Source: an uncultured Lachnospiraceae bacterium (GTDB lineage: Bacteria > Bacillota > Clostridia > Lachnospirales > Lachnospiraceae). From it: a stretch of DNA of 37,292 bases. A program made the translations under genes and the position numbers. The notes below the pieces were generated by a model. The model was not told the origin of the DNA. It made no database searches and saw nothing but the letters and a program-made list of their open reading frames with translations. The stretch spans positions 1 through 37,292 of the forward strand of contig CADBPC010000117.1 in assembly GCA_902796425.1 (NCBI GenBank), written 5' to 3'. Within the stretch, counting starts at the first letter, position 1, and each line of letters begins with the position of its first letter. This document shows, piece by piece, positions 9,250 through 37,186 of this stretch.

Positions 9250-9284
9250 ATTGCGCGGTCTTCGGGCTGTATCATCCATTAACT

Positions 9285-10923: not shown

Positions 10924-10936
10924 GAGGAAAAGCCGT

Positions 10937-11710
10937 ATGTTATTTGATACCGCAAAATATTATGACCTGAGCGGAAAGACCGCCATTGTAACAGGGGGCG
11001 CGACTGGGCTCGGCCTTGCAATCACCAAATGCCTTGCAGGCGCGGGCGCGAAGGTCGCTGTCATCGGATCCTCCCCTTACGAAAAGGCTGAATCAGCACT
11101 TTCTCCCCTCGGGAATGCTGTGCGCTACTACCGTCACGACCTGACAAAGACAGGCGAAACCCCGGCTGTCATCTCGCGGATTGCGGATGATCTCGGGCGC
11201 CTCGACATTCTCGTCAGCAACGCCGGCAATCATTGCAAAAAGAGTCTCGAAGAGATGACCGTCGAGGACTACGAGAGCGTTTTAAAGCTCCACCTGTCCG
11301 GCGGCTTTGCAGCCGCAAAGGCAGCCGTCCCTTATATGAAGCAGGCGGGCGGCGGCAGAATCCTCTTCATGGCCAGCATGACCAGCTACATCGGACAGCC
11401 CTACGTTGCCGGCTACGCCTCCGCAAAGGCCGGGATTCTCGGCCTCGTCCACACGCTCACCGCGGAGCTTGCACCCTTTAACATTACCGTCAACGCCATC
11501 GCGCCGGGCTGGATCGATACACCGATGTTCCACAAGGCGACCGACAACGATCCGCCAAGACTCGCCAAAATCCTCGGCAGAATCCCTGCCGGAAGAGTCG
11601 GCGATCCCATGGACATCGGACTGTGCGCGGCATTTTTATGCAGCGACGCGGCATCCTATATCAGCGGCTCGTGCATTCCCGTAGACGGAGGAGCATTGAT
11701 CGGCTTTTAA
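10937..11710 (+). CDS. SDR-family oxidoreductase (gluconate/KduD-like)
   Basis: This is a classical short-chain dehydrogenase of 257 residues. The Rossmann motif TGGATGLG is at 19-26, NAG at 95-97, and the catalytic residues are S147, Y160 and K164 in YASAK. The end, ISGSCIPVDGGALIGF, is the usual SDR C-terminus. ATG 10937 is chosen because the homologous region (LFDTAKYYDLSGKTAIVTGG) begins there and GAGAGGAAAA precedes it; an in-frame GTG at 10907 would overlap the dehydratase gene by 17 bases. The N-terminus resembles 2-deoxy-D-gluconate 3-dehydrogenase / gluconate 5-dehydrogenase types, which suits the operon. The cofactor could be NAD or NADP. Confidence 0.93.
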   Translation: MLFDTAKYYDLSGKTAIVTGGATGLGLAITKCLAGAGAKVAVIGSSPYEKAESALSPLGNAVRYYRHDLTKTGETPAVISRIADDLGRLDILVSNAGNHCKKSLEEMTVEDYESVLKLHLSGGFAAAKAAVPYMKQAGGGRILFMASMTSYIGQPYVAGYASAKAGILGLVHTLTAELAPFNITVNAIAPGWIDTPMFHKATDNDPPRLAKILGRIPAGRVGDPMDIGLCAAFLCSDAASYISGSCIPVDGGALIGF

Positions 11711-13667: not shown

Positions 13668-13701
13668 GCCCCATGGACCCTGCGAAACAGATCCATGGGG
13701 C
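13668..13701. repeat. Ten-base inverted repeat in the GH32 leader
   Basis: GCCCCATGGA and TCCATGGGGC are perfect inverted repeats 14 bases apart. They end 23 bases before the GH32 start codon and close to its ribosome site. There is no T run, so it is not a normal terminator. It could be an operator or an RNA stem affecting translation. Confidence 0.55.
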
Positions 13702-13724
13702 GATTTCAGATAAGAGGAGGCAGT

Positions 13725-15224
13725 ATGAACAGTCAGGCTCTGCGGGAAGCAAGGCGTTATGAAGAAATATTCGGACACCGGATTACTCAGGAGCAGCGGC
13801 CCGCATTCCACCTTTCCCCCCGCGTCGGCTGGATGAATGATCCGAACGGTTTCTGCCGGTACAACGGTGTTTACCACCTGTATTATCAATACTATCCCTA
13901 CGACTCGAAGTGGAACACCATGCACTGGGGACACGCCGTCAGCAAGGATCTTCTTCACTGGGAATATCTCCCTGCAGCCCTGGCGCCGGATGAGATATAT
14001 GACCGCGACGGCTGCTTTTCAGGAAGCGCCGTGGAACTTGAGAGCGGACAGCTTCTTCTGATGTACACCAGTGTCGTCAATGAGCGTGACAAAAACGGAA
14101 GGATCTGGGGAGTCCAGACCCAGAGCATCGCCATCGGCGACGGAACGGATTTTGAGAAGTATTCCGGAAACCCGGTTCTTACGGAAAAGGATCTTCCCGA
14201 GGGAGCAAGCCGTTTTGATTTCCGCGACCCAAAGATCATTCGCCTTAAGAGCGGCGGCTATGCATGCGTCGTAGGCTCCAGGCCCGCAGACAAAACCGGA
14301 CAGATCCTGCTGTACAGGAGCAGCGACTGCATCCACTGGGAATTCTGGCGCGTCCTGATCGCCAACAAAGGAAGATTCGGCAGGATGTGGGAGTGCCCGG
14401 ATTTCTTTGAGCTGGACGGACGACAGGTCCTGCTGACCAGCCCGCAGGATATGCTGCCGGAAGGCTTTGAATATCACAACGGAAACGGCACACTTGCACT
14501 GATCGGAAGCTGGGACGAGACCACCGGTGAATTCATTCCGGAAAAAGATCAGGCCATTGACTACGGAATTGATTTCTATGCTCCGCAGACGGTCCTTGCC
14601 CCCGACGGCAGAAGGATTATGATCGGCTGGATGCAGAACTGGGATGCGTGCGCTATCCGTGAAGAGGAGGAACCCTGGGCCGGCCAGATGTCTCTTCCCA
14701 GGGAACTGCACATAAGGGACGGAAGGCTGTATCAGCAGCCGGTCCGTGAGTTGGAGGGGCTTCGCCGGGGCGGCATCAGGAAAACCGACCTTACCGTATG
14801 CGGCGGGCTCTGCATAGGGGGAATTGAAGGAAGAACAGTAGAACTTCTGATCCGGATCCGTCCTCTGGACCCGGATAAGGTCTACCACAAATTTTCCGTC
14901 CGCTTTGCGGAGGATGAAAAGTACCACACCTCGGTCAGTTTCCGTCCCCACGAAAAGGTTCTTAAGATTGACAGGAAATTCTCCGGTTCAAGACGCGCGA
15001 TTATTCACCAGAGGCGCTGCCTTGTCCCCGAGAGTGAAAGCGGAGAAATCAACCTTCGGATTATTCTCGACAGGTACAGCTCCGAAATCTTTATCAACGA
15101 CGGCCGCCAGGTCGTTTCCGCGGCGATGTACACACCGCTTTCGGCAAAGGATATCTCCTTCTTTGCCGACGGGCAGGCCGTCATGGACATCGAAATGTAC
15201 CGGCTCGAGTCACAGACTCTCTGA
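13725..15224 (+). CDS. GH32 beta-fructosidase (sucrase/levanase-type)
   Basis: The 499-residue protein has all three GH32 catalytic signatures: WMNDPNG at 36-42 with nucleophile D39, FRDP at 166-169 with the transition-state Asp, and WECPDFF at 222-228 with acid/base E223. A five-bladed propeller domain is followed from about residue 350 by a C-terminal beta-sandwich that includes SSEIFINDGRQ. There is no signal peptide, so it acts in the cytoplasm on imported sucrose, sucrose-6-phosphate or short fructans. The ATG at 13725 follows GAGGAGG; an upstream in-frame ATG at 13695 lies inside the leader repeat and is not favoured. The neighbouring ABC binding-protein remnant suggests a former fructan locus. 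The gene ends 15 bases into the convergent minus-strand gene. Confidence 0.95.
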   Translation: MNSQALREARRYEEIFGHRITQEQRPAFHLSPRVGWMNDPNGFCRYNGVYHLYYQYYPYDSKWNTMHWGHAVSKDLLHWEYLPAALAPDEIYDRDGCFSGSAVELESGQLLLMYTSVVNERDKNGRIWGVQTQSIAIGDGTDFEKYSGNPVLTEKDLPEGASRFDFRDPKIIRLKSGGYACVVGSRPADKTGQILLYRSSDCIHWEFWRVLIANKGRFGRMWECPDFFELDGRQVLLTSPQDMLPEGFEYHNGNGTLALIGSWDETTGEFIPEKDQAIDYGIDFYAPQTVLAPDGRRIMIGWMQNWDACAIREEEEPWAGQMSLPRELHIRDGRLYQQPVRELEGLRRGGIRKTDLTVCGGLCIGGIEGRTVELLIRIRPLDPDKVYHKFSVRFAEDEKYHTSVSFRPHEKVLKIDRKFSGSRRAIIHQRRCLVPESESGEINLRIILDRYSSEIFINDGRQVVSAAMYTPLSAKDISFFADGQAVMDIEMYRLESQTL

Positions 15225-24789: not shown

Positions 24790-24823
24790 AAAACAGGACA
24801 CAGAGCCGGTTCTCTGTGTCCTG
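24790..24823 (-). terminator. Rho-independent terminator after the dehydratase gene
   Basis: CAGGACACAGAG and CTCTGTGTCCTG form a perfect 12-base stem with a six-base loop, followed on the minus strand by TTTTA. It lies 43 bases after the IlvD-type gene and separates the nine-gene operon from the metal ATPase operon. Confidence 0.88.
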
Positions 24824-24865: not shown

Positions 24866-26644
24866 TCAGTCCCTGTAGTCCAGCCAGGCTCCGCGCATCG
24901 GGCTGACTGCGTGGTCGGAGAAAAGGCGCAGAGCCCCTCTCTTATAGCGGCGGGGCACCGGCTTCCAGGCAGCGCGACGCTCCTCGAGAATCTTTTCCAT
25001 CTCCTCCGGCGTTTTGCGCTCGCCCCGGACGCCGATGATATTCAGCTTTCTCTCAAAGACATCGAGCTCAATCAGGTCGCCCTCCTCGACAAGAGCGATC
25101 GGGCCGCCGTCCGCGGCCTCGGGCGAGCAGTGGCCGATAACAGGGCCGGTGGAGGCTCCGGAGAACCGTCCGTCGGTGATCAGCGCGATTGCGCGCCCCA
25201 GCTCTTTGTCGGAGCTGATCGCCTCCGAGGTATAGAACATCTCGGGCATGCCGCTCCCCTTCGGTCCCTCGTAGCGGATAAAGACAGCGTCGCCCTTCTC
25301 CACCCTGTGATGAAGCACGGCGTCCAGGCACTCCTCCTCGGAGTCGAACGGGCGGGCTCTCAGCACGGCCTTATACATTTCCTTCGGGCAGGCTGTGTGT
25401 TTGATGACGGCGCCCTCCGGGGCAAGATTTCCTTTAAGAACGGCGATGGAGCCGGCGGTTCCGATGGCCTTGTCGTACGGACGGATAATGTCCTCTTTTG
25501 TAATTCCGTTTTCAAAACCCTGCAAGGCCAGGACATCCGCATAGCGCCGGTTGAACTCCTGCAGCCATCCTGCGCACTTCTCATAAAAACCATTCTTTTT
25601 CAGCTCGTCCAGGTTTTCTCCAAGAGTCTTGCCGGTAACGGTCATGACATCCAGATGAAGGACATCACGGATCTCTTCCATAATGGCAGGAACGCCGCCC
25701 GCATAATAGAAGACCTCCGCGGGCCACCTGCCTGCGGGACGGACATCAAGGAGATAATGCGCTCCTCTGTGCAGCCTGTCGAACGTATCGCCGGTGATTT
25801 CAAGCCCGAGCTCATGCGCGATCGCGGGCAGATGCAGCAGCGTATTGGTCGAGCCGGAGATGGCGGCGTGCACCATGATGGCGTTCTCAAAGCTTTCCAT
25901 GGTGAGGATGGAAGACGGCTTCATCGAATCATCCCCCGCGATTTCCACCGCGCGCTCTCCGGAGCGGAATGCGTAGTCCAGAAGGTCCGGGCTGGTCGCC
26001 GGTATCAGGGCAGATCCGGGAAGAGACAGTCCCAGCGCCTCCGCCATGATCTGCATGGTCGAAGCGGTCCCGATAAAGGAGCAGGCGCCGCAGGAAGGGC
26101 AGGCGTTGCATTTGGCCCAGTCAAGCCTCTCCTCACTGATCTCGCCGCGCTCGTACTGGGCGCTGTACATGCCGAGCTGCTCGAGCGTCAGCATCTCGGG
26201 GCCTGCGTTCATGGTTCCACCCGCGACAAACAGGGAGGGAATATCAACGCGCAGCATGCCCATCAGGTTCCCGGGGCACCCCTTGTCGCAGCTCGCCAGA
26301 AAAACGCCGGCATCAAACGGCGTCGCGTTCGCCTGGATCTCGATCATGTTGGCGATCATCTCGCGGCTGACAAGGGAATAATTGATCCCGTCCGTCCCCT
26401 GGCTCTCGCCGTCGCACATATCCGTCGTAAAATATCTTGCTCCGCGGCCGCCTGCTGCTGCCGCACCTTCGCGCACCTTCTCCACCAGCTTATCCAGGTG
26501 GCCGCTCCCGGGGTGGGAATCGCCGAACGTACTCTCAATAAAGATCTGCGGCTTGGAGAGGTCCTCGGGCTTCCAGCCTGTCCCGATCCGCAGCGGATCC
26601 AGCTCCGGCGCCAGTGTGCGCATTTTCTGACTGATTAAATTCAT
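24866..26644 (-). CDS. IlvD/Edd-family sugar-acid dehydratase
   Basis: The 592-residue protein is in the Fe-S dependent dehydratase family that includes IlvD, 6-phosphogluconate dehydratase and xylonate/arabinonate dehydratases. Cluster and metal motifs are visible: MCDGESQGTDG with C77, SCDKGCPG with C119, and CNACPSCGAC with the remaining cysteine between 179 and 188. FSGASTGPVIGHCSPEA in the C-terminal domain matches the family's active-site serine region (ITDGRFSG). No isoleucine or valine biosynthesis genes are nearby. The gene is last in an operon with an ABC importer, a hydrolase and an MFS transporter, so a catabolic role on an aldonic or related acid is more likely than amino-acid synthesis. 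It starts 25 bases after the MFS gene. Confidence 0.9.
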   Translation of the reverse strand: MNLISQKMRTLAPELDPLRIGTGWKPEDLSKPQIFIESTFGDSHPGSGHLDKLVEKVREGAAAAGGRGARYFTTDMCDGESQGTDGINYSLVSREMIANMIEIQANATPFDAGVFLASCDKGCPGNLMGMLRVDIPSLFVAGGTMNAGPEMLTLEQLGMYSAQYERGEISEERLDWAKCNACPSCGACSFIGTASTMQIMAEALGLSLPGSALIPATSPDLLDYAFRSGERAVEIAGDDSMKPSSILTMESFENAIMVHAAISGSTNTLLHLPAIAHELGLEITGDTFDRLHRGAHYLLDVRPAGRWPAEVFYYAGGVPAIMEEIRDVLHLDVMTVTGKTLGENLDELKKNGFYEKCAGWLQEFNRRYADVLALQGFENGITKEDIIRPYDKAIGTAGSIAVLKGNLAPEGAVIKHTACPKEMYKAVLRARPFDSEEECLDAVLHHRVEKGDAVFIRYEGPKGSGMPEMFYTSEAISSDKELGRAIALITDGRFSGASTGPVIGHCSPEAADGGPIALVEEGDLIELDVFERKLNIIGVRGERKTPEEMEKILEERRAAWKPVPRRYKRGALRLFSDHAVSPMRGAWLDYRD

Positions 26645-26669
26645 AAGTAACCTCCCGATAACCCTGCTT

Positions 26670-27989
26670 TTATCCTTTAACCCTTCTCTCCCGCCTTATC
26701 CATGAAACCACAATGGACATGGCGCACACAAGAAACAGAATCCTGAAAACAGGATAATAGCTTCCCGCGGCATCCACCGCGGCTCCGACGAGAAAGAGAA
26801 TCAGCATCGTTGCGATGTTCCCGGCGGTGCTCAGATGCCCGTAGGGGACCTCATAATTTTCTTTGCCGTATTCGCGAAGGCACAGCGACGTCCATCCGAT
26901 GGTCGTAAAGCTGCAGGAGGCGCCCAGAAGGAAACCCGCAGCGCCGAGCGCTCCCGGCGACTTCTGAAGGAAAAGAAGAAGGTATCCTGCCAGCAGTATC
27001 ACGTAAAAGCAGCAGACGGTTTTCCAGACGCCGATCCTGTCCGCCGACACGCCATAGATGATTTTTGATATCAGATTGCCGATCATGAACGCCGAAACCA
27101 TCAGCGAGCTGATTTCAAGGGTATAACCGATCGAAATGGTAAACTGCGCCAGATAGTTGTTGAGCACCTGGCCGGTCAGGACGCCGCCCAGAATACCGAG
27201 GAAAATAATGACGCTGCGGATATCCTCTTTGTGATCCGCACCCTTTGCAGCCAACGTACCGGATGCCGGATTCTTAAAGTATCCGGCCTCTTCCGGCACC
27301 GGTGCACCGCTGCCCTGCCGCGCGCCGTAGGCCTGTTTTCCAGCCGCCTCCGGCGACCTCTCGGGGAAAAGGAAAGTACCTGCTGCCGTAACAGCAAGCG
27401 TAATAATTCCTACTACAAGGGCGGCCTGTCTCCAGCCCGCCGCGCGGATAAGACGCGATATCAGGGGGCTTGCCAGCGCAGCCGTAATTCCCGAGCCGGC
27501 AAAGCAGATACCCATGATGGTATTGGTCTTTTTCAGGAACCAGTTTTTGATCAGCGACGCGGTCATGATACTCGTCAGCGAAAGGACGATTCCGCAGATG
27601 ACCGCGGAGATATACCAGTGCCAGGGCCTCTGATAAAGGAACATCAGACCGTAGACGGCCGCACTCATCAGTATATAGACAATCCTGAAAATGCGGAAAT
27701 TCACTTTCAGGTAAATATGCGATGCAAAGGAAATAAAGACAGCGACGACCGCTGTCCGGATGGTGTAATAGAGGGACATGGAGGAGTTGGAAAAGCCGCA
27801 GTCCTCAAGAATGGCGGAGATAAAAAGTCCGGTGCAGTTGATAAGGACGCCTACAATGCATCCGTAGAGAAGAAAGCAACCCGCCATCACAAGCCACGGC
27901 GCAGCGCCCCCGGAGTTCCTTTCCCCGGGGCGTCCTGCATGGCCGGAAAAAGCTGGCTTTCTGCCGCCTCCTTCGCCGCCCGTGCTCAT
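26670..27989 (-). CDS. MFS transporter
   Basis: The protein has twelve predicted helices in 439 residues. A hydrophilic N-terminal tail of about 30 residues rich in Gly and Arg precedes helix 1 (WLVMAGCFLLYGCIVGVL). A charged central loop (about 210-245) separates the two halves. The second half has KIIYGVSADRIGVWKT, the repeated loop motif of MFS proteins. It resembles the monocarboxylate/oxalate-formate style of MFS. ATG 27989 overlaps the upstream stop codon as ATGA and has GAGGAG eight bases before it, so it is preferred over GTG 27995. With the IlvD-type enzyme downstream it may import the acid that enzyme dehydrates or export an end product. Confidence 0.9.
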   Translation of the reverse strand: MSTGGEGGGRKPAFSGHAGRPGERNSGGAAPWLVMAGCFLLYGCIVGVLINCTGLFISAILEDCGFSNSSMSLYYTIRTAVVAVFISFASHIYLKVNFRIFRIVYILMSAAVYGLMFLYQRPWHWYISAVICGIVLSLTSIMTASLIKNWFLKKTNTIMGICFAGSGITAALASPLISRLIRAAGWRQAALVVGIITLAVTAAGTFLFPERSPEAAGKQAYGARQGSGAPVPEEAGYFKNPASGTLAAKGADHKEDIRSVIIFLGILGGVLTGQVLNNYLAQFTISIGYTLEISSLMVSAFMIGNLISKIIYGVSADRIGVWKTVCCFYVILLAGYLLLFLQKSPGALGAAGFLLGASCSFTTIGWTSLCLREYGKENYEVPYGHLSTAGNIATMLILFLVGAAVDAAGSYYPVFRILFLVCAMSIVVSWIRRERRVKG

Positions 27990-28531
27990 TTCCACAACTC
28001 CTCGTACGGAATGGATTTCACAGTCCTGAAAACGGCGTACAGGAGCACTGCGACAGCAGCATAGCCCGCCGTCGCCGCGATATTATCACTCCCGAAGGCC
28101 TTCGCGCTTATCGTGAGCGCAAGGCTGATCACCGCCGTCGCCGCGCTGATAAACGTCCCGCACATGGCGCCGTACCGGGAATACTGGATTGTTCGCTCGT
28201 ACTGATCTCTCCGAAACGGTTCCTTGTAATAGGTGTACCGGACAAGCCCCCAGATAAGGAATGTCATCGCGACAAGGGCAAACCCTCCGACCATTCCCGC
28301 GGGGCCTCTTTTATTGACAAGCGCGTGCCGGCTGCCCGCAAAGACATAGAGCACGGCCGCGGCTGCCGTCATTATAAAGAGCTGCGCCTTTTTCCTGCGC
28401 AGCTCTTCGGGTTTTAGAAGACACTGAAACCGGGTCCCCCGGTAATGAAGAACCTTGATTTTATTGCCGTTCTCATCCAACTCTTCGACTTCGTCGTAGT
28501 CGGACTCATATCTCTTGTCGAAAATATTCAT
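27986..28531 (-). CDS. Small four-helix membrane protein, function unknown
   Basis: This is a 181-residue protein not recognised as a named family. Residues 1-48 are charged and cytoplasmic in character (MNIFDKRYESDYDEVEELDE). Four hydrophobic helices follow at about 50-68, 78-100, 120-142 and 150-168. The C-terminus (SIPYEELWK) is short. The ATG at 28531 follows GAGGA. It is placed between a CocE/NonD hydrolase and an MFS transporter whose start overlaps its stop by four bases, so it is likely co-translated with the transporter. It could be a small partner subunit, comparable to the small membrane component in other transporter pairs; there is no direct evidence. Confidence 0.8.
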   Translation of the reverse strand: MNIFDKRYESDYDEVEELDENGNKIKVLHYRGTRFQCLLKPEELRRKKAQLFIMTAAAAVLYVFAGSRHALVNKRGPAGMVGGFALVAMTFLIWGLVRYTYYKEPFRRDQYERTIQYSRYGAMCGTFISAATAVISLALTISAKAFGSDNIAATAGYAAVAVLLYAVFRTVKSIPYEELWK

Positions 28532-28566
28532 CAGCAGTCCTCAAATCAGTTCCGGGAAGGTTCTTA

Positions 28567-30267
28567 TTACTCCTCCGGAATCAGCGGGAACACGATGCAG
28601 GACTTTTCACCGCCGACGAAAACCTTCTGGTGCGCGATCTTCGTCTTATCGGCCAGGGCCCAGCAGCCCGGCGTATTGCTGTGCGCCGCATACTGGGGGA
28701 AATCCGCGGAAGCGATGTCCAGACGGATCCTGGAGCCCTTCGGGAACTTGTAGGCGATGTCCCACATGTCGATGGAAACAGGCACCTCTTCGCCCGGGGT
28801 GTAGCTGATCCTGTGGCTGCTGCCGTTCCTGTAGCCAAGCGTCGTTATACCGGTCCGGACATTGAATGCCTTCCCGTCCGGCGTAATCTCGCAGAGCTTC
28901 GCCGCAAAAGCCGTATCCTCGCAGTCCGTGGCAACGCTCAGCTGTACCCTGATCGTGCCGAGGACGGTAAAGTCCTCCTCCAGAGGTTCCGAAACAAAAC
29001 TCACCACATCGCTTCGCCAGTCCGGTCCGGGCTGGGTAAGGCTTCCCTTCAGCTCGGGAGTGCAAAGGCACGACTCCGCGCCGATGGTAGGCGTCGGATC
29101 CTCCGGATCGTAGGCATACTCAACCACGGCCTCATCCGGTGAGGGCGCCGCGGAAATACCCCTTCCCGACTCATTTACATTCAGGAAGAAACGCTTTTCC
29201 TTCTGGCCGCTGATCTCATACTCCGGACGGCTGTACCACGTATCGTCCCCGATAATATAGGTATCTACAGAGCCTTCCGGCTCCTTTCCCTCCACCAGGA
29301 TATCATACATCCAGTTGAAGGTTCTGAGAATATCATCGTTCCGGAAATCCTTACCGGTTCGGATGTGGTTCTCATCGGCGACATTAAAGCCGTGATCCCA
29401 GTCGCCGACAAGGAACTTGCTGTGTTTTTTGCATTCATCGGACAGGCTCTTCCATGTCTCGATCGCAGATCCGAGATGATGGTCGTACCACCCCTCTCCG
29501 AAATAGATGGGAAGGGTCACTCTCGAAGGGATCTCCTTGAGCAGCCCCCAGAAGCCGGTGTTCCAGTATTCGTCGTCCGCATCCGTAAGGGTCACCCACT
29601 TGCGGTACCAGTCGACTCTCTTTCCCCAGAGCTTCTCGTCCACCTCCACGTGAGGCCTGAACCTGCAGGACTCGATGTAGTCCGCAGTCACGGGGAACCC
29701 GGCGTTTCCCATCGCCCAGCCGGTAAGGACGTCGTGCCGGAACAAACCGTCCTTATAGGCCGATACGTGCCTGTGCGCGCCGTAGTGGGTCAGATACATG
29801 GTCTTTACCTTCTCCGGCAGAATATCCGAAATAACCCAGCCGGTAAGGGACAGGTAAGAGCAGCCGGCATAGCCGATGCACTTTACCCAGTCCTGCGCCG
29901 CAACCCAGTCGATGAACTTTTTGCCGTCCGCGCGCTCGTTGACGTTCGGTTCCCACTCACCTTCCGACTCACCGCTTCCGCGGCAGTACTGTATGCAGTA
30001 GTTGAACCCGCGGCGCGCGTACTCCAGCGCGGTAGCCCTCGTAATATAATCGCTGTCCGGATAGCAGGTCCTGACCGCAATCGTGGGGAGCGGCCCTTCA
30101 AGGTCCGGACGATAGACGATCATCTTAAGTCCCACGCCGTCGTCCATCTTCAGCATAAATTCATCTACGGAAATTTTATCGGTCAGCACCGGCCTGTCGC
30201 AGTCTGAAAAAGCCTTCTCGATCCTGCCGAGTTCAAATATCCGTTCTTCTTCGGGAGTCATTGCCAT
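28567..30267 (-). CDS. CocE/NonD-family hydrolase (S15 X-Pro dipeptidyl-peptidase-like)
   Basis: The 566-residue protein has an alpha/beta-hydrolase domain (about 35-340) and a C-terminal jelly-roll domain (X-Pro_DPP_C, about 345-555). Triad residues are visible: S137 in GCSYLS, D262 in GWYDHH and H292 in GDWDHGF. RGSGESEGEW near 96-105 is also a family motif. There is no signal peptide, so it is cytoplasmic. Known members hydrolyse cocaine-type esters, acyl-amino acid esters, beta-lactam esters or X-Pro peptides. It follows OppF-type ATPase by 11 bases, so its substrate is probably what the ABC system imports. Together with the IlvD-type dehydratase, an acylated sugar acid or amide is a reasonable guess, but unproven. 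Confidence 0.92.
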   Translation of the reverse strand: MAMTPEEERIFELGRIEKAFSDCDRPVLTDKISVDEFMLKMDDGVGLKMIVYRPDLEGPLPTIAVRTCYPDSDYITRATALEYARRGFNYCIQYCRGSGESEGEWEPNVNERADGKKFIDWVAAQDWVKCIGYAGCSYLSLTGWVISDILPEKVKTMYLTHYGAHRHVSAYKDGLFRHDVLTGWAMGNAGFPVTADYIESCRFRPHVEVDEKLWGKRVDWYRKWVTLTDADDEYWNTGFWGLLKEIPSRVTLPIYFGEGWYDHHLGSAIETWKSLSDECKKHSKFLVGDWDHGFNVADENHIRTGKDFRNDDILRTFNWMYDILVEGKEPEGSVDTYIIGDDTWYSRPEYEISGQKEKRFFLNVNESGRGISAAPSPDEAVVEYAYDPEDPTPTIGAESCLCTPELKGSLTQPGPDWRSDVVSFVSEPLEEDFTVLGTIRVQLSVATDCEDTAFAAKLCEITPDGKAFNVRTGITTLGYRNGSSHRISYTPGEEVPVSIDMWDIAYKFPKGSRIRLDIASADFPQYAAHSNTPGCWALADKTKIAHQKVFVGGEKSCIVFPLIPEE

Positions 30268-30278
30268 AATTCACGTCC

Positions 30279-31235
30279 TCATTCAAATTTGCTGCAGGCA
30301 ACCCAGTGGCCCGGCGTAACCTCTTTGAGCGGAATGTCATGTCCTGTGCACTTTTCTGTCGCATAGGGACATCTTGCCGCAAAACGGCATCCCGGCTTGG
30401 GCTCGATCGGGCTTGTCAGCTCACCTCTCATGACCTCGGTGGAGAGCTTCTTGCCCTTGAGCGTGGGCTCCGGAACCGCTGCGAGAAGTCCGTTGGTATA
30501 CGGATGCAGAGGATTATCGAACAGCTCGTCCGTGTTACAGTACTCCACGCACTGGCCGAGGTACATAACAACGATATCGTGGCTGATGTGCTTGACGACC
30601 GAAAGGTCATGCGTGATGAAAATATAGGTCAGGCCCTTGTCATCCTGCAGGTCCATCAGAAGGTTCAGAACCTGCGCCTGGATGGAAACATCCAGAGCGG
30701 AGACGGGCTCGTCGCATACGATAAACTCCGGATCCACGGCAAGAGCGCGTCCGATACCGATTCTCTGGCGGCGTCCGCCGTCCAGCTCGTGGGAGTAGCT
30801 CTCCGCGTAGCGCTCGGCAAGACCGACCGTCTTCATGATTTCCGCAACCTTGCTCTCATACGCATCCTTGCCGGAAGTCAGCTTGTAGTTCTTAAGCGGC
30901 TCGCCGATCAGGTCGCGGACGCATTTGCGGGGATCGAGGGACGCCTGCGGATCCTGGAAGATCATCTGCATCCGCTTGCGGTACTCTCTCATCTGCTTCT
31001 CATTAAAGTGAGTGATGTCCACGCCGTCGTAGAAAATCTGTCCGCCGGTGGACTCATGAAGATGCAGAAGGAGTCTTCCCAGTGTCGATTTGCCGCAGCC
31101 GGACTCGCCGACGACGCCAAGCGTCTTTCCCTTGCGGATCTTGAAATTAACCCCGTCCACAGCGTGAAGGTGTCCCTTGGGAGTCTTGAAATATTTTTTC
31201 AGGTCCTTTACTTCAACTAATACTTTATCTTCCAT
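30279..31235 (-). CDS. ABC transporter ATP-binding protein, OppF/DppF type
   Basis: At 318 residues this is full length for the family. Walker A is GESGCGKST near 45, Walker B is FIVCDEP near 168, the Q-loop is in MIFQDPQASLDP and the switch His is in ITHDLSV. The signature motif reads ELDGGRRQR instead of ELSGGQRQR, a variant I recall in other Clostridia OppF proteins. The C-terminal oligopeptide-transporter region has CRFAARCPYATEKCTG, which in the family may bind a cofactor or Fe-S cluster. It pairs with the OppD-type ATPase upstream (17-base gap) and the two permeases. Energises uptake of the ligand of the family-5 binding protein. Confidence 0.95.
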   Translation of the reverse strand: MEDKVLVEVKDLKKYFKTPKGHLHAVDGVNFKIRKGKTLGVVGESGCGKSTLGRLLLHLHESTGGQIFYDGVDITHFNEKQMREYRKRMQMIFQDPQASLDPRKCVRDLIGEPLKNYKLTSGKDAYESKVAEIMKTVGLAERYAESYSHELDGGRRQRIGIGRALAVDPEFIVCDEPVSALDVSIQAQVLNLLMDLQDDKGLTYIFITHDLSVVKHISHDIVVMYLGQCVEYCNTDELFDNPLHPYTNGLLAAVPEPTLKGKKLSTEVMRGELTSPIEPKPGCRFAARCPYATEKCTGHDIPLKEVTPGHWVACSKFE

Positions 31236-31252
31236 CTGTTACACCCCGCTTA

Positions 31253-32221
31253 TCAATCATACAGGTGGCACTTGACAAAGTGGCCTTCGCTGACTTCCTT
31301 CATCTGCGGCGCCGTTTTGCACTTATCCGTAGCATGCTTGCAGCGATCTGCAAAGCGGCATCCCTGCAGTTTTTCCGTGGGATCCGGCATCATGCCGTCG
31401 ATGGTCTCAAGGCGTCTTGCCTTGGAATCCAGCTTCGGGATTGCATCGAACAGGCCCTGTGTATACGGATGAAGATTGCCGACCGAGTCAAAGATCGCGC
31501 TGCAGGGGCCGTACTCGATGCACTCGCCCGCATACATGACCGCAACCTTCTCGCAGGTCTGCGCAACGACACCGAGGTCATGCGTAACCAGGATCATTGC
31601 CGTGTTGAGTTCTACCTGGAGCTCGTGGATCAGGCCCAGCATCTGCGCCTGAATGGTAACGTCCAGCGCGGTCGTGGGCTCGTCCGCAAGAATGAGCTTG
31701 GGCCTGCAGACCAGCGCGATCGCAATGACGATACGCTGCTTCATGCCGCCGGAGAACTGGTGCGGATACTCCACCTTTCTGTTCGCGGGGATACCGACCA
31801 TCTCCATCATATTGTCGACGGCCTTGCCAACCTCTTCACGCGTCATATTCGGGTTGTGTTCATGAAGAACCTCTGCGATCTGGTCGCCGACCGTCATGAC
31901 CGGGTTCAGGGCCGACATGGGATCCTGGAAAATCATGGAAACCGTGTGGCCGCGCAGCTCGCGCATTTTATCCTCGTGCGCCTTGACGATGTCAACGCCG
32001 TCCAGCTCAATGGAGCCGCTCGCGATTTCGCCGACTCCCTCGGGGAGCAGCTTCATGACGGAGAGACAGGTTGTGGTCTTGCCGGCTCCTGTCTCGCCGA
32101 CCAGTCCCAGCGTCTCGCCGTAATCCAGAGAAAGGGACAGTCCGTTGACAGCATAGACTGTGGCCATCTCCGTATTGTAGTTGATGCTTAAGTCCTTTAT
32201 CTCGAGTAATTTATCTGCCAT
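31253..32221 (-). CDS. ABC transporter ATP-binding protein, OppD/DppD type
   Basis: ATG 32221 (MADKLLEIKDLSINY) is chosen over 32236 because the GAGGG ribosome site lies eight bases before it and it avoids overlap with the permease gene; the protein then has 322 residues. Walker A is GETGAGKTT, the signature is FSGGMKQR, Walker B is LILADEP and the switch His is in LVTHDLGV. The C-terminal part has CRFADRCKHATDKC, the oligopeptide ABC extension. Forms a heterodimer with the downstream OppF-type protein on the inner face of the membrane. Sequence alone cannot tell peptides, nickel or oligosaccharides as cargo. Confidence 0.95.
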   Translation of the reverse strand: MADKLLEIKDLSINYNTEMATVYAVNGLSLSLDYGETLGLVGETGAGKTTTCLSVMKLLPEGVGEIASGSIELDGVDIVKAHEDKMRELRGHTVSMIFQDPMSALNPVMTVGDQIAEVLHEHNPNMTREEVGKAVDNMMEMVGIPANRKVEYPHQFSGGMKQRIVIAIALVCRPKLILADEPTTALDVTIQAQMLGLIHELQVELNTAMILVTHDLGVVAQTCEKVAVMYAGECIEYGPCSAIFDSVGNLHPYTQGLFDAIPKLDSKARRLETIDGMMPDPTEKLQGCRFADRCKHATDKCKTAPQMKEVSEGHFVKCHLYD

Positions 32222-32225
32222 TTGA

Positions 32226-33137
32226 TCAGCCCTCACTCTTTCCCGCTTTCGCCTTTTTCTTCTTCTTGCCGAGCGTTCCTCTCAGCTTGGGATCCATCGC
32301 ATCGCGCAGCGCATCGCCGATGATGTTGCAGCACAGAACGGTGATCATGATGAACAGGCCGGGAACGATCGCGATGATCGGGTCTCTGCTCATGTAGGTA
32401 TAACCGTCGTTAACCATGGAGCCCCAGCTTGCGGTGGGCGGATTGATGCCCATTCCGAGGAAGGAAAGCGCCGCCTCGTTCAGGATCGCGTTACCGATGT
32501 TCATGGTCATCAGGACCAGGTTTGCCGAGATACAGTTCGGGAAAATATGATCGATCGCGTTTTTGACCGTGGACGCGCCGCAGAGCGTTCCTGCGGTGAT
32601 ATAGTCCATCTGCTTGACCGTAAGGACGGATCCTCTTGTGACACGGGCGTAGTTCGGTATCATCGAAATACCGATCGCAAGGCAGATATTGCCGAGGCCC
32701 TTGCCGAAAATCGAGCCGAGGAACAGTGCCATGATGATCATGGGAACCGACATCATGGCGTCCATGACTCTCATGATCACGGCGTCAACAAAGCCGCCCG
32801 CCATACCGGAGATCAGTCCGAGGATCATTCCGATACCGCCGGCGATCAGGACGGAAACCGCGCCTACGACGAAGGATACACGGCCGCCGTAGATGATACG
32901 GCTCAGGACATCGCGTCCCATGGAGTCCGTACCGAAGATGTGCCCCGCCGTCGACCCCAGGAGCATGTTCTTCAGATCCTGCTTGTAGGGATCATAGGGT
33001 GACACAAGAGGGGCAAACACTGCCGCCAGGATCATAATCAGCAGGATGATCAACGCGACAATAACTGATTTTCTTGCCAGCATGACTTTCGTAATACGAG
33101 AGTCTTTTATTTTCTGAATCGTTGATTTTTTCTTCAT
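32226..33137 (-). CDS. ABC transporter permease, OppC/DppC type
   Basis: The 303-residue protein has six membrane helices. A cytoplasmic N-terminal stretch is rich in Lys (MKKKSTIQKIKDSRITKVML). The ATPase-coupling EAA loop reads EAALSFLGMGINPPTASWG, which is diagnostic of the DppC/OppC subgroup. VSPYDPYKQDLKNMLLGSTAGHIFGTDSMGRDVLSRIIYGGRVS is present across two stretches and matches the family's periplasmic-loop and helix-2 region. It lies 23 bases after the OppB-type permease gene and five bases before the OppD-type start, so expression is coupled. Confidence 0.95.
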   Translation of the reverse strand: MKKKSTIQKIKDSRITKVMLARKSVIVALIILLIMILAAVFAPLVSPYDPYKQDLKNMLLGSTAGHIFGTDSMGRDVLSRIIYGGRVSFVVGAVSVLIAGGIGMILGLISGMAGGFVDAVIMRVMDAMMSVPMIIMALFLGSIFGKGLGNICLAIGISMIPNYARVTRGSVLTVKQMDYITAGTLCGASTVKNAIDHIFPNCISANLVLMTMNIGNAILNEAALSFLGMGINPPTASWGSMVNDGYTYMSRDPIIAIVPGLFIMITVLCCNIIGDALRDAMDPKLRGTLGKKKKKAKAGKSEG

Positions 33138-33160
33138 AATTCCTACCTCTTACGCCTGTC

Positions 33161-34117
33161 TCAGTCATTTCTGATACGCGGATCGATGAAACCGTAGAGA
33201 ATATCTACGATCAGGTTACAGATAGCGACCGCAATGGAGATTACGAGAACGCCGTTGCAGACAACCATGAAGTCTCTTCCCTTGATGGAAGTGATCATCA
33301 GATTTCCGAGGCCGGGAACCACGAAAATACTTTCTACCAGTACAGTACCGCCGATCATGCCGCCCAGCGACATACCCATGACGGTAACGATCGGGATAAG
33401 CGCGTTTCTGAGCTGATGCTTGAAGGTAATCGCCCTCTGGCTGATTCCCTTTGCCTTGGCAGTCGTAACGTAATCCTGCCGGATAACCTCCAGCATGGAG
33501 GATCTCGTCTGTCTGGCAAAGGATGCCAGGGGATTCATGGCAATTACGATTGTGGGAAGGATCATATGCTTTGCAAATTCAGCAAAGCCGCCTTCCTGGA
33601 TCGAAATATAGCCGGAAGTGGGAAGTATGTGGAGATTGAGTGCGAATACAAGGATCAGGATCATGCCGAACCAGAACATGGGCATGGACATACCGATATT
33701 CGCGATAATGGAAATAACGGAATCAAGTGCGCTTCCTCTGTTCTTAGCCGCAACGATGCCAAGGAACACGCCTACGACAACCGCAAGAACAAATCCGGGA
33801 AGAACAAAGGAAAGGGTATTCTTCAGACGCTGGACGAGAATGGGTGCGATCTCGCTCTGCATTGCAACGGAGCGTCCCATTTCACCGCGGAACAATCCGC
33901 CGATCCACTTGAAATACTGGATCAGAACCGGCTGGTCGTAGCCGAACAGCTTTGTATAATACGCGATCTGCTCTTCCGTCGCGCTCGGGCCCAGGAAATT
34001 AACGATCGGATCGCCGGGAACCAGCTGCATCAGCAGAAACACAATCAGTGTCACGATAAAAATAACAATGACAGACTGGCCGATTCGACGAAGGATCATG
34101 TTGCCAATATTTTTCAC
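33161..34117 (-). CDS. ABC transporter permease, OppB/DppB type
   Basis: The 318-residue protein has six membrane helices. It starts MILRRIGQSVIVIFIVTLIV after a short lead, typical of DppB/OppB. The EAA-like loop is RQDYVTTAKAKGISQRAITF and the C-terminus YGFIDPRIRND is nearly invariant in the family. The permease pairs with the OppC-type protein to form the channel. It begins 79 bases after the binding-protein stop; a hairpin in that gap probably lowers transcription into the permease genes. ATG 34117 is preceded by AGGAGGA. Confidence 0.95.
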   Translation of the reverse strand: MKNIGNMILRRIGQSVIVIFIVTLIVFLLMQLVPGDPIVNFLGPSATEEQIAYYTKLFGYDQPVLIQYFKWIGGLFRGEMGRSVAMQSEIAPILVQRLKNTLSFVLPGFVLAVVVGVFLGIVAAKNRGSALDSVISIIANIGMSMPMFWFGMILILVFALNLHILPTSGYISIQEGGFAEFAKHMILPTIVIAMNPLASFARQTRSSMLEVIRQDYVTTAKAKGISQRAITFKHQLRNALIPIVTVMGMSLGGMIGGTVLVESIFVVPGLGNLMITSIKGRDFMVVCNGVLVISIAVAICNLIVDILYGFIDPRIRND

Positions 34118-34130
34118 CGGATTCCTCCTT

Positions 34131-34165
34131 TAAAAAGGGCCGCCACACGTTAAGTATGGCGGCCC
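34131..34165 (-). terminator. Intra-operon hairpin between binding protein and permease genes
   Basis: On the minus strand GGGCCGCCA and TGGCGGCCC form a perfect nine-base stem with an eleven-base loop, followed by TTTTTA. It looks like a leaky terminator, a common way to give more binding protein than membrane subunits. Confidence 0.75.
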
Positions 34166-34196
34166 GGATGATACTCTGACCTGTCAGAGACACCGA

Positions 34197-35864
34197 TTAC
34201 TTGTCAAGCCAAGCGTTTGCGATATCCCATGTGTTCTGATGGTAGGTCTTCCATCCTTCGTTCTTTACATAGTCATACTTGAAGCCGGGCTCATTCTGAA
34301 CGAACAGCGGTCTGCCGAACAGTGCGATGCCGTTCTCATGATCATACATCAAAGCCTGCATCTCATACTCGAGCTTGATCTTCTCTTCGTCTGTAGGAGC
34401 GGTTCTGATTGCTTCAAGAAGTTCCATTGCATCGTCCGGATGCTGGATGCCCTTTGCATAGAAAGCGCCTGCCTTGTCCAGATGACGGCCCATGTACAGA
34501 CCGAGGTCAGGAGAGATGGCTGCAAAGTGGCCCATGATACCGGACCAGTTGCCCTGGGAATACAGAGCGGACTGAGCGGACTCGTCAACGAGGTCGATTT
34601 CGCAGTGGATGCCGATTTCCTCAAGCATGTTAGCTGCAGCAGTGAACATATCCTTGTTGCCTGCGTCGGTTGTCAGTCTTGTGCTGAAGCCGTCGGGATA
34701 GCCAGCCTCTGCAAGGAGCTGTTTTGCATGCTCGGGATCATAGTGAACAGCGTTCAGATCGGGATCATAGGTAACAGCGCCGGGAACTGCCCACTGGTTT
34801 GTCTCCTGGATCATGCCGTAACCGAAAGCTTCGATCAGAGCCGGAACATCAAGGCCTTCTGCCATTGCAAGACGAACCTTGGGATCCTGGAAAGGACCTT
34901 CCTCAACAGAGTTCGGGATAAGACCTGTCATAACAGCGCCCTGTCCGGAAAGGTTCTTGCACATAACGATTTTGCCGATGGATGTGGAGCCGAGGGCTGC
35001 GATCTCTTCCGCAACTGCCAGGTTGTTCATACCGATGATATCGTACTCACCTGCCTGGAAAGCAGAGGATCTGGTTGTGGGCTCGTTTACGCAGTAGATT
35101 TCTACAGCGTCAAGATAGGGCTTGCCTTCCTGCCAGTAGTTCTCGTTCTTTACGAACTTGCAGGATACGCCGGGATCAAATTCCGCGATCTGGAAAGGGC
35201 CTGTGCCGCAGGATGTTGTGGCAAGTGCTTCGGGATCGATCTTGTCGGGTGCCATATAGTAGCAGAAGAATCCGATTCCTTCCAGAGTGGAGGAATTCCA
35301 GGATTTAAGCTTCATCTTCAGCGTATAGTCGTCGATGATTTCCATGGACTCTACGTTGGCAGTCTCTGTTCTTTCTCTGGACTGATACTCTTCGATATTG
35401 ATCTTGACCGCTTCCGCGTTGAAGGGCTCGCCGTCCGCGAACTGTACGCCCTGGCGAAGATGCCATGTAATCGAAGGCTCCGAAGCGTCGGTCTCCCAGG
35501 ATTCGGCGAGAACGCCGCGGAGTGTTCCGTCCTCATTGTAAGAGGTCAGGGACTCATATGCGATTGTCATGTATGTAAGAGAAGCGTTGTTGGTATTGGT
35601 CGGTGTGTAGCCGCCGAAGGGCTGGATGTGGGAAGCATAGCGAAGAGTTCCGCCATACTTTACCTCGCTGGCATCCGCGAGCTCATTGGTGTCGGCGGCT
35701 TCCGCTTCCATCTTCTGAGCAGCAGACTGTTCCTCGGCAGCCGGTGCAGCAGCATCTCCTGAAGCAGCGGGAGCAGCAGCCGGAGCGGCGCCGCCAGCGC
35801 AGCCTGCAAGAACTGATGCGGCCAGGACAGCCGTCATAAGTGTTGCCATAAGCTTTTTCTTCAT
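34197..35864 (-). CDS. ABC transporter substrate-binding lipoprotein, family 5
   Basis: ATG 35864 is chosen because GGAGGAG precedes it and a lipoprotein signal starts there: MKKKLMATLMTAVLAASVLA, then the lipobox LAGC with the lipidated Cys. An Ala/Pro/Glu-rich linker (about 27-60) anchors the mature domain. The SBP_bac_5 fold begins at YGGTLRYASHIQPFGGYT. Motifs such as ITWHLRQGVQFADGEPFNAEAV and YDPEHAKQLLAEAGYPDGF are characteristic of peptide, nickel and oligosaccharide binders. The mature size of about 535 residues is normal. It is first in the operon, divergent from the LacI-type regulator. A hydrolase and dehydratase in the operon favour a small conjugate rather than long peptides as ligand; this is inferred. 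Confidence 0.94.
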   Translation of the reverse strand: MKKKLMATLMTAVLAASVLAGCAGGAAPAAAPAASGDAAAPAAEEQSAAQKMEAEAADTNELADASEVKYGGTLRYASHIQPFGGYTPTNTNNASLTYMTIAYESLTSYNEDGTLRGVLAESWETDASEPSITWHLRQGVQFADGEPFNAEAVKINIEEYQSRERTETANVESMEIIDDYTLKMKLKSWNSSTLEGIGFFCYYMAPDKIDPEALATTSCGTGPFQIAEFDPGVSCKFVKNENYWQEGKPYLDAVEIYCVNEPTTRSSAFQAGEYDIIGMNNLAVAEEIAALGSTSIGKIVMCKNLSGQGAVMTGLIPNSVEEGPFQDPKVRLAMAEGLDVPALIEAFGYGMIQETNQWAVPGAVTYDPDLNAVHYDPEHAKQLLAEAGYPDGFSTRLTTDAGNKDMFTAAANMLEEIGIHCEIDLVDESAQSALYSQGNWSGIMGHFAAISPDLGLYMGRHLDKAGAFYAKGIQHPDDAMELLEAIRTAPTDEEKIKLEYEMQALMYDHENGIALFGRPLFVQNEPGFKYDYVKNEGWKTYHQNTWDIANAWLDK

Positions 35865-35927
35865 ATCATCTCCTCCATGTTGGTGGTTGCCGCTGCAATG
35901 AGTCGCGGGGGTCAGACCCTCCGACTT

Positions 35928-35941
35928 GTGCAACGATGTAC
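35928..35941. promoter_or_regulatory. LacI-type operator O1
   Basis: GTGCAACGATGTAC matches its own reverse complement at 10 of 14 positions and is centred on CG. It covers the predicted transcription start and first bases of the nine-gene operon's transcript, where a bound repressor would block initiation. Confidence 0.6.
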
Positions 35942-35948
35942 GTGTTTC

Positions 35949-35976
35949 ATTATACTCCCTGCATTCCTTTTGTCAA
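35949..35976 (-). promoter_or_regulatory. Sigma-A promoter of the nine-gene ABC-hydrolase-dehydratase operon
   Basis: On the minus strand TTGACA (35976-35971) and TATAAT (35954-35949) are both perfect consensus boxes, spaced by 16 bases. The predicted start lies near 35942, giving a leader of about 78 bases. Such a strong promoter flanked by operators implies that repression is the main control. Confidence 0.88.
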
Positions 35977-35986
35977 TTATTTAATG

Positions 35987-36000
35987 GTACAACGATTTAT
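35987..36000. promoter_or_regulatory. LacI-type operator-like site O2
   Basis: GTACAACGATTTAT shares ACAACGAT with the other sites but is the least symmetric. It lies just upstream of the -35 box of the minus-strand operon. Centre-to-centre distance to O1 is 59 bases. Confidence 0.4.
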
Positions 36001-36015
36001 TTTTTTCATTTATTG

Positions 36016-36037
36016 TGCACTTTAACGATTAAGTGCA
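36016..36037. promoter_or_regulatory. LacI-type operator O3
   Basis: TGCACTT and AAGTGCA are perfect seven-base inverted repeats around TAACGATT, with a CG centre. It lies between the two divergent promoters, 33 bases from O2 and 72 bases from O4 centre to centre, so looping or co-binding is possible. Confidence 0.6.
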
Positions 36038-36047
36038 ATTATCAGGC

Positions 36048-36075
36048 TTCACATAAGCAGAAATTATGCTACAAT
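36048..36075 (+). promoter_or_regulatory. Promoter of the LacI-family regulator gene
   Basis: TTCACA (36048-36053) and TACAAT (36070-36075) are 16 bases apart, and TGC directly before the -10 makes it an extended -10 promoter. O4 lies about 10 bases beyond the expected start. Confidence 0.65.
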
Positions 36076-36091
36076 TAGTTTAACTTATTTG

Positions 36092-36105
36092 GTATAACGT
36101 TTTAC
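36092..36105. promoter_or_regulatory. LacI-type operator O4 (autoregulatory)
   Basis: GTATAACGTTTTAC matches its own reverse complement at 12 of 14 positions, with the AACGTT core common in LacI-family operators. It lies in the regulator's leader, consistent with autorepression. Confidence 0.65.
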
Positions 36106-36175
36106 TTGTTGTCAGAAAATGGATTTTCCGACATCCCGGGATCAGACAGAATCTTGCTAAAAGGAAGTCAGGGAG

Positions 36176-37186
36176 ATGATTACCGTAAAAGAAATTGCAA
36201 AGCTGGCCGGTGTTTCTCCGAGCACTGTTTCCATAGTGCTGAATAACAAGTCAAAAGAGCGGAAACTCTCGGAGGAAACTGTATCAAAGGTTCTGGCCGT
36301 CGCTCAAAAGCACGGGTACCGTCCGAATGTACAGGCTGTCGGCCTGCGGGTCAGTCCGGACTCCGACAGATTCCGAATCATTATTTTCTGGACGGCGGAC
36401 TACCGCGCGTCAATGATGCTGCGCTTCATCAAGAGTATCGAAAGGGAAATCCTGGCGCAGCACTATACCTATGAAGTCCTGCTCAGGCCCTATAAGAACG
36501 GGCAGCTAAAGAATGCGCTTACAGAGGAGCTGATCCGCTCCTGTCACGGCGTTATTGTCTGCAATGCTTCGGAAGAGGATATGCAGTACCTTGACAGCAA
36601 CAGCTTCACAAGGCCGGTTGTTCTGTATAATCGTTATTCCAAACTCCATACCACCGCCAACGTTGACGATGCGGAGATCGGCGCTTTCCCGGCGGAAATT
36701 TTCATATCCCACAAAAAAAAGCATCCCGCCCTGGTCACCTATCCGGTAACCTTTAACGGGATGAATCTCAGAAATAATGTGTTCTGTTATAAATGCGAAG
36801 AAGCGGGGCTCCCCGCCCCGCCTGTCTATGTCGCGCCTGCCGGCCTCGAAGGCGGCTATCAGGCAACCCGGGATCTCCTGAAGGATCACCCGGAAACCGA
36901 CTGCATCTTCTATACCAGTGACATCCTAGCACTCGGATCTCTGAAATACTACGCCGAAAACGATATCTCTGTTCCGGATAAAATAGAGTTCATCGCAACG
37001 GGCAACTATGAGGACGACTGGTGCATCAACTGCTACCCGTCCGTATCCGTCGTCCGGATCCCCATTGAAGAGATGGGCGCCCAGTGCCTTCGCTCGCTTC
37101 ACAGTCTGATGACCTATAAGAAACAGGACAAAGAGTCTGTCAGACTCCCGGTGACCTATATTCCAAGAGACAGCTGTCCGAAATAA
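36176..37186 (+). CDS. LacI-family transcriptional regulator
   Basis: The 336-residue protein has an N-terminal helix-turn-helix (ITVKEIAKLAGVSPSTVSIV, residues 2-21) and hinge helix (about 50-58). A periplasmic-binding-protein-like effector domain follows. The C-terminal half contains DCIFYTSDILALGSLKYYAEND and IEFIATGNYEDDW, standard for the family. VLNNKSKERKLSEETVSKVL completes the DNA-binding domain. The ATG at 36176 follows AAGGAAG and AGGGAG. It is divergent from the nine-gene operon and four CG-centred sites lie between them, so it very probably represses that operon and itself. LacI proteins usually bind sugars or nucleosides, which hints that the operon's inducer is sugar-like. Confidence 0.95.
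   Translation: MITVKEIAKLAGVSPSTVSIVLNNKSKERKLSEETVSKVLAVAQKHGYRPNVQAVGLRVSPDSDRFRIIIFWTADYRASMMLRFIKSIEREILAQHYTYEVLLRPYKNGQLKNALTEELIRSCHGVIVCNASEEDMQYLDSNSFTRPVVLYNRYSKLHTTANVDDAEIGAFPAEIFISHKKKHPALVTYPVTFNGMNLRNNVFCYKCEEAGLPAPPVYVAPAGLEGGYQATRDLLKDHPETDCIFYTSDILALGSLKYYAENDISVPDKIEFIATGNYEDDWCINCYPSVSVVRIPIEEMGAQCLRSLHSLMTYKKQDKESVRLPVTYIPRDSCPK

Follow-up and report, generated by a model that had tools for sequence, protein, structure and literature searches.

The closest described counterparts of the system reported here are transporters that use the oligopeptide-type fold for sugars or sugar conjugates. The Agrobacterium opine transporters, with AgaA for agropinic acid (6hlx), MoaA for mannopinic acid (6tfq) and AccA for agrocinopine, likewise have a family-5 solute-binding protein (SBP) of the Opp-type fold, whose ligand is a sugar conjugate, and Thermotoga TM1223 (4pft) uses the oligopeptide-type fold for mannobiose, as we propose for a carbohydrate ligand here. 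The opine catabolic enzymes differ from those of the operon described below, and we know of no CocE/IlvD pair encoded with the Agrobacterium transporters. Opp-type SBPs of Thermotoga that bind oligosaccharides, including a cellobiose-binding protein, are also described (PMC3850815). On the enzymatic side, Clostridium acetobutylicum has an IlvD-type dehydratase, CA_C3604, that adjoins the gluconate symporter CA_C3605 and is predicted to make 2-keto-3-deoxygluconate (KDG), which is then phosphorylated (PMC4179846). Here we describe a LacI-linked nine-gene operon that joins an Opp-type importer to a CocE/NonD hydrolase, a major facilitator superfamily (MFS) transporter and an IlvD/Edd dehydratase. 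It lies in a stretch of 37,292 nucleotides (the window; contig CADBPC010000117.1) from an assembly of an uncultured Lachnospiraceae bacterium (GCA_902796425.1; 224 contigs, 3.08 Mb, 92.55% complete, 4.56% contamination).

We think it fairly probable that the core of this system consists of a repressor, the import of a non-peptide conjugate and the intracellular cleavage of its ester. The fuller reading is that LacI represses an operon for the catabolism of a small conjugate of carbohydrate type, an ester (or amide), from which an aldonate is released and then dehydrated. This reading is more tentative and falls a little short of an even chance, as does its central element, that the imported conjugate supplies the sugar acid. 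Under this scheme, the repressor would, without ligand, occupy operators where transcription begins and ahead of the -35 box, and the operon would be transcribed once the ligand is present. The SBP would then hand the conjugate over intact to OppBCDF. In the cytoplasm, the CocE-type hydrolase would cleave the ester and the IlvD/Edd enzyme would dehydrate the aldonic (gluconate-type) acid; the resulting 2-keto-3-deoxy-aldonate would enter glycolysis through a KDG-type kinase and a 2-keto-3-deoxy-6-phosphogluconate (KDPG)-type aldolase, both encoded elsewhere. The MFS transporter may either export the released acyl acid or import free aldonate. This import-cleave-dehydrate chemistry, suggested in the preliminary description, is plausible in view of an esterase-type CocE, a putative gluconate-type IlvD and an SBP without the peptide-holding aspartate; its placement of a sugar acid on the imported conjugate is a conjecture.

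Operon layout and putative LacI operators

All nine open reading frames (ORFs) were found on the minus strand, in the order SBP_bac_5, OppBCDF, CocE/NonD hydrolase, membrane protein, MFS and IlvD/Edd, and their Pfam and NCBIfam matches agree with the families assigned to them beforehand. The features, in window coordinates, are:

36176..37186, plus strand, LacI-family regulator gene, divergent from the operon (Pfam LacI 9e-16, Peripla_BP_3 2e-20)
36092..36105, LacI operator-like site O3, GTATAACGTTTTAC, 12/14, near the lacI promoter-like site
36048..36075, plus strand, lacI promoter-like site, 10/12 with TG before the second hexamer, a consensus match only
35987..36000, LacI operator-like site O2, GTACAACGATTTAT, 11/14, 10 bases upstream of the -35 box
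35949..35976, minus strand, operon sigma-70 promoter, 12/12 consensus, TTGACA-N16-TATAAT
35928..35941, LacI operator-like site O1, GTGCAACGATGTAC, 12/14, at the transcription start as inferred from the -10 box
34197..35864, minus strand, SBP_bac_5 gene (2e-65), lipoprotein-type N-terminus by eye
34137..34165, minus strand, attenuator-like hairpin with T run between the SBP and OppB genes, from the terminator scan
33161..34117, minus strand, OppB-type permease (Pfam BPD_transp_1)
32226..33137, minus strand, OppC-type permease (Pfam BPD_transp_1)
31253..32236, minus strand, OppD-type ATPase (ABC_tran and oligo_HPY)
30279..31235, minus strand, OppF-type ATPase (ABC_tran and oligo_HPY)
28567..30267, minus strand, CocE/NonD serine hydrolase (Peptidase_S15 5e-33, PepX_C, TIGR00976)
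27986..28531, minus strand, 181-aa membrane protein with four predicted membrane helices
26670..27995, minus strand, MFS transporter (Pfam MFS_1 9e-30)
24866..26644, minus strand, IlvD/Edd dehydratase, putatively of the gluconate-dehydratase type by grouping (Pfam IlvD/Edd E 2e-110)
24790..24823, minus strand, terminator hairpin with a 12-pair stem and a short T run

The proposal of a single LacI-linked operon is borne out by this layout with its divergent LacI gene, and the promoter placed at 35949-35976 is indeed a perfect consensus match. The genes lie close together, as had been claimed, with gaps from SBP to IlvD of 79, 23, -11, 17, 11, 35, -10 and 25 bases, so that the range of 0-80 bases first given becomes -11 to +79. 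The most likely start codon of the SBP gene is the ATG at 35864, which GGAGG precedes, and not the TTG at 35933, which lies 15 bases from the -10 box. A promoter scan returned 11 sites, with a single 12/12 match on the minus strand, the one at 35976-35949, against 9.0 expected, which is chance level overall and thus indicates no internal operon promoter. The terminal hairpin (24823-24790), previously called strong, has a genuine 12-pair stem followed by a short T run (TTTTACTG), the earlier adjective suiting the stem better than the T run; RNA folding adds two pairs (-27.6 kcal/mol), and the hairpin is not among the sites that pass the terminator-scan rule. The SBP-OppB hairpin (34165-34137; 12 pairs, five T) is the first-listed of 19 terminator-like sites (11.7 expected), and read-through past the SBP gene may therefore be partial.

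The regulator has both the helix-turn-helix and the ligand domain of the LacI family, and CG-centered palindromes, which we regard as putative operators on their sequence, occur at LacI-linked promoters. One was present in each LacI-SBP gap examined (the window and five related loci), and the 311-base gap of the window holds all three operator-like sites. From the window and loci L006, L021, L071, L072 and L080 we derived the consensus GTACAACGTTGTAC, and we counted its occurrences in the best 80 of 166 confirmed CocE loci in named genomes (L071-L150), three of which had contributed to the consensus. These loci were recovered by an alignment-based scan; a single-protein CocE scan of the genome contigs found no relative. 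Sites matching at 12/14 or better number 69, across 40 of the 80 loci (1.19 Mb), against 0-2 in ten whole-set dinucleotide shuffles, and 63 of them stand upstream of an SBP, LacI, AtuA, CocE or CaiB match at a distance of at most 400 bases (600 where the match is an SBP). The operator is present in all 27 loci with a LacI homolog versus 13 of the 53 without one. The host genome has six places with at most two mismatches, a limit that excludes O2 with its three; four of them are CG-centered, two here and two before a second SBP operon on contig C145. One more 11/14 match occurs in the window, at 13859; window shuffles average 0.3 such matches. Sites are paired at 53-56 bases in seven of the 80 loci and at 13 bases in six, and O1 and O2 are 59 bases apart. 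The regulator may repress the operon, with looping.

A homolog of the window LacI, 55% identical, is divergent from the SBP operon of G189 (L021). The second operon of the host genome, SBP-OppBCDF-CocE on C145, is adjoined by GH43, GH3, GH51 and LacI genes. The full order in this locus (L006, C145:25000-40925) is GH43-SBP-OppBCDF-CocE-GH3-LacI-GH51; at L006:2848 and 2881 it has sites, TTACAACGTTGTAA, that are perfect palindromes. Its LacI is 28% identical to that of the window, and the genome has five CocE genes in all, the other four being 42-51% identical to the window CocE.

The importer, its ligand and the hydrolase

The Opp/Dpp-type importer is complete, with one SBP_bac_5, two BPD_transp_1 permeases and two ATPases combining ABC_tran and oligo_HPY. 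In peptide-binding relatives, DppA D408 and OppA D419 clamp the amino group of the peptide. In the sequence alignment, the corresponding column (numbered by mature positions, which we checked against the sequences) holds Ile or Val in all 17 SBPs, namely Ile in the window protein and either residue in 16 homologs, and Asp in both Escherichia coli controls; a separate alignment of six SBPs agrees (6/6). The same proteins carry an Asp three residues further on, in a PDLG block, by which the site looks rebuilt and not simply empty; the block reads PDLGLYMGRHL or a one-off form in 16 of 19 SBP matches (two of the rest without a recovered ORF, one blank). We therefore consider a non-peptide ligand likely. 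Fold matches of the AlphaFold model of the SBP (17 sequences, pLDDT 83.6) range over binders of peptides, nickel, glutathione, opines and mannobiose. AgaA and MoaA are 21-23% and TM1223 18% identical to the window SBP, and the suggestion that the operon puts a peptide-type ABC system to a new use is stated too strongly: the ligands of solved SBPs with this fold already include agropinic acid, mannopinic acid and mannobiose.

The hydrolase passes the TIGR00976 (CocE_NonD) model (251.7 bits, cut-off 66.3) and has the S15 and PepX_C domains. Its best solved relatives are cocaine esterases (E 6e-49, in two aligned stretches), with which it has in common the domain layout, the triad residues and the tyrosine: S137, D262, H292 and Y69 align with cocaine esterase, where they form the Ser-Asp-His triad and the oxyanion Tyr, and are invariant in nine aligned sequences. 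These features support an esterase-type hydrolase and suggest that it acts on an ester more than on an amide. No signal peptide was seen by eye, and the enzyme should thus act inside the cell on OppBCDF imports. Unlike cocaine esterase, it is one of five such genes in its genome and sits within a LacI/Opp operon.

This core recurs in gut Clostridia. Among the 80 CocE loci, at least 21 hold SBP, OppB or OppC genes, the OppF match ends 12-193 bases before the CocE match in 17, and OppF directly precedes CocE in all seven loci whose CocE is at least 56% identical to that of the window. AtuA-type genes occur in at least 38, LacI and CoA-transferase III genes in at least 27 each, and thiolase genes in at least 18; 14 of the 21 Opp-bearing loci also have AtuA and/or CoA-transferase III genes. 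These tallies, made by tblastn with reference genes partly from genomes apparently among the 80 (L096, L099, L116), are lower bounds, since many loci end at contig ends; an earlier ORF-based tally had found CocE in 69 of the 80, missing genes under long antisense ORFs. The AtuA, AtuA-ferredoxin, CoA_transf_3 and thiolase assignments were confirmed at one locus, L076. The recurring sets, LacI-SBP-OppBCDF-CocE(-CocE2)-AtuA-AtuA_ferredoxin-CaiB-thiolase, whole or partial, share GTACAACGTTGTAC (e.g., L080:3221-15994, L076:1-11752). Those of the Blautia schinkii type (L080, LacI-SBP-OppBCDF-CocE-AtuA-CaiB-thiolase) have the core genes, their order and the operator in common with the window; their tail is of the acyl-CoA type, whereas the window has the membrane protein, MFS and IlvD genes instead and, by Pfam, no AtuA or CoA-transferase III gene in the operon. 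SBP-Opp and CocE genes occur together in Blautia schinkii (L080), Lachnotalea glycerini (L134) and Faecalibacterium gallinarum (L123), and an AtuA-CocE pair in Catenibacillus scindens (L116). CocE is patchily distributed in the lineage, few genomes of which have it: 4 genomes at E<=1e-60 among 99 relatives and 3 at E<=1e-100 among 150 genomes from 150 genera of the family, the host genome included both times. The AtuA family is PF07287, formerly DUF1446. No published description of the Opp-CocE(-AtuA) operon set was found in listings from an open-access library, and DUF1446 is termed a protein of unknown function in one source (PMC4682846).

The dehydratase tail and competing explanations

The last gene is likely to encode a sugar-acid (gluconate-type) dehydratase, and not a biosynthetic one, as had been surmised, because the true ilvD of the genome adjoins leuB on another contig: the C133 gene passes the dihydroxy-acid dehydratase cut-off (788.7 vs 618.15) and its neighbor passes the leuB cut-off (480.7 vs 353.2). 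The window enzyme falls below the cut-offs of both TIGR00110, the ilvD equivalog (516 bits, 618.15 required), and TIGR01196, edd (240.3 bits, 708.25 required). It displays C119-D120-K121 and TDGRFS (T490-S495), in line with the family motifs C-D-K-x2-P-[GA] and T-D-[GA]-R-x-S given in PMC5770437, and also a Cys-Asp-Gly motif, which that source reports for 6-phosphogluconate but not pentonate dehydratases. Apart from the host, 49 genomes have homologs of 50-83% identity (295 of the order searched; 52 matches in 50 genomes with the host). We examined 20 stretches, 18 of the best-scoring (G439 excluded) plus G259 and G229, which were chosen. GntP lies within 4 kb in eight of them, one of these genes passing the gluconate:H+ symporter cut-off (404.9 vs 292.75), and a GntR-SDR-DHDPS set in one. 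A 23-row tree makes the window enzyme sister to three GntP-linked ones, with support of 91/94, which is below the 95/80 mark, and with two long branches, C133 and L057_0, that meet and were flagged by the program. The gluconate pathway of C. acetobutylicum is likewise predicted to use an IlvD-type enzyme, but one placed beside a gluconate symporter (PMC4179846); the window dehydratase has no adjoining GntP or GntR and is under LacI with Opp-CocE.

Candidates for the downstream steps are encoded elsewhere in the genome. C105 encodes a PfkB-family kinase that shares 82% identity with the kinase beside such a dehydratase in L054 and by this relationship is a probable KDG kinase, and C101 has one PF01081 (KDPG/KHG-type) aldolase. 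The MFS transporter weakly resembles bile-salt, lactate and oxalate/formate MFS models, and a search of 391 other genomes of the order gave no match to it at E<=1e-40. The 181-aa membrane protein belongs to no Pfam or NCBIfam family. Its three weak homologs among 98 other relatives (25-29% identity; L068:8799-9359, L069:8400-8936, L070:8276-8812) lie directly upstream of SBP_5, OppB and OppC genes, and it is thus a possible accessory of Opp uptake.

Several observations weigh against the fuller reading. The strongest is that the tail is absent from the other CocE loci: neither IlvD nor the small membrane protein occurs in any of the 80, and an MFS gene in just one (24% identity), and the link between hydrolase and dehydratase therefore rests on one operon in one assembly. 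The earlier expectation that CocE, a family-5 SBP and IlvD co-occur accordingly stands for the first two and fails for IlvD. The AtuA and CoA-transferase III enzymes of the related loci would treat the acyl rather than the sugar half, and the host genome itself has acyl-branch genes outside the operon: at the edge of contig C87 (L153:1-3970) are an AtuA fragment at the contig end, CaiB and CitMHS, with a divergent LysR gene upstream. Among the 20 dehydratase stretches, 11, four of them with homologs 78-80% identical, lack any match to GntP, GntR or a kinase within 4 kb, and the C105 kinase is below every listed KDG-kinase cut-off (best 150.8 of 440). The SBP-OppB hairpin may uncouple the remaining genes from the SBP, and the Asp three residues past the altered column makes another binding geometry possible. 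The fold search was dropped as a ligand discriminator, since the SBP model matches peptide, metal, opine and sugar binders.

By gene content, the operon is made of two modules, the SBP-OppBCDF-CocE set that recurs in gut Clostridia and the membrane protein-MFS-IlvD set seen only here. These modules could also work independently under one repressor, with Opp-CocE cleaving an acylated glycoside, the acyl part of which goes to AtuA/CaiB enzymes elsewhere, and MFS-IlvD handling free dietary gluconate. We give this explanation real but limited credence: it accommodates the missing tail of the other loci, the eight IlvD relatives that have a gluconate symporter and no hydrolase, and the C87 cluster, whereas the short gaps around the tail genes (35, -10 and 25 bases) suggest one transcript and no internal promoter rises beyond chance.

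That the operon serves ordinary peptide uptake, its hydrolase being like an X-Pro dipeptidyl-peptidase and its tail genes bystanders, is improbable. This reading could appeal to the Peptidase_S15/PepX_C domains, the Opp-type transporter and the peptide binders among the best SBP fold matches, but the hydrolase scores 27.2 against the Xaa-Pro dipeptidyl-peptidase model, which requires 642, its nearest solved relatives are esterases and the amino-group Asp column is Ile/Val; LacI control and the glycosidase genes beside the paralogous operon also speak against it. Equally slim is the chance that this metagenome-assembled genome has fused two operons, as the finding of the nine-gene combination in one assembly only might suggest: the nine genes differ little in G+C (0.50-0.61), and the membrane-protein and MFS genes overlap. 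A metal or metallophore importer like NikABCDE is very improbable, for although nickel models are the top NCBIfam matches of the SBP and both permeases, and several of the SBP fold matches are NikA proteins, all three model scores are below cut-off (SBP 149.8/393; OppB 301.8/350 and OppC 266.9/300, which come close), and LacI control and the co-transcribed carbon-catabolic enzymes do not fit.

Surrounding genes and biological meaning

Elsewhere in the window there is a second sugar-acid set, comprising DHDPS-like, Fe-ADH and DUF1537-type (SBD_N/NBD_C) kinase genes (3-2809) and RraA/aldolase-type, galactarate/altronate dehydratase C-domain and SDR genes (8542-11710; none of these three reaches its NCBIfam cut-off); a PrpR-type activator gene accompanies it (6563-8356). 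Near the operon are also an MGH1-like (mannosylglycerate hydrolase type) glycosidase and a GH32 hydrolase (3033-5120 and 13695-15224).

As judged from our open-access searches, the operator-linked CocE operon family and its rewired member in the window are new. A broader idea, which we put forward as rather unlikely in its entirety, is that a LacI regulon family of gut Clostridia marked by GTACAACGTTGTAC imports acylated carbohydrate conjugates whole via Opp and splits them in the cytoplasm by CocE-type esterases; most members would degrade the acyl half through AtuA, CoA-transferase and thiolase, and the window member would use the sugar-acid half via its gluconate-type dehydratase while its MFS transporter expels the acyl acid. 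The question can be addressed in named strains, as L080, L134 and L123 carry the core genes and L116 the AtuA-CocE pair, and the operon in the window offers a natural way to find out which of the two halves is the sugar acid. If true, the short operator would be usable for finding further regulon members, the AtuA family would be tied to a conjugate-uptake route, and gut bacteria would have a concrete route to import and open acylated plant or microbial conjugates.

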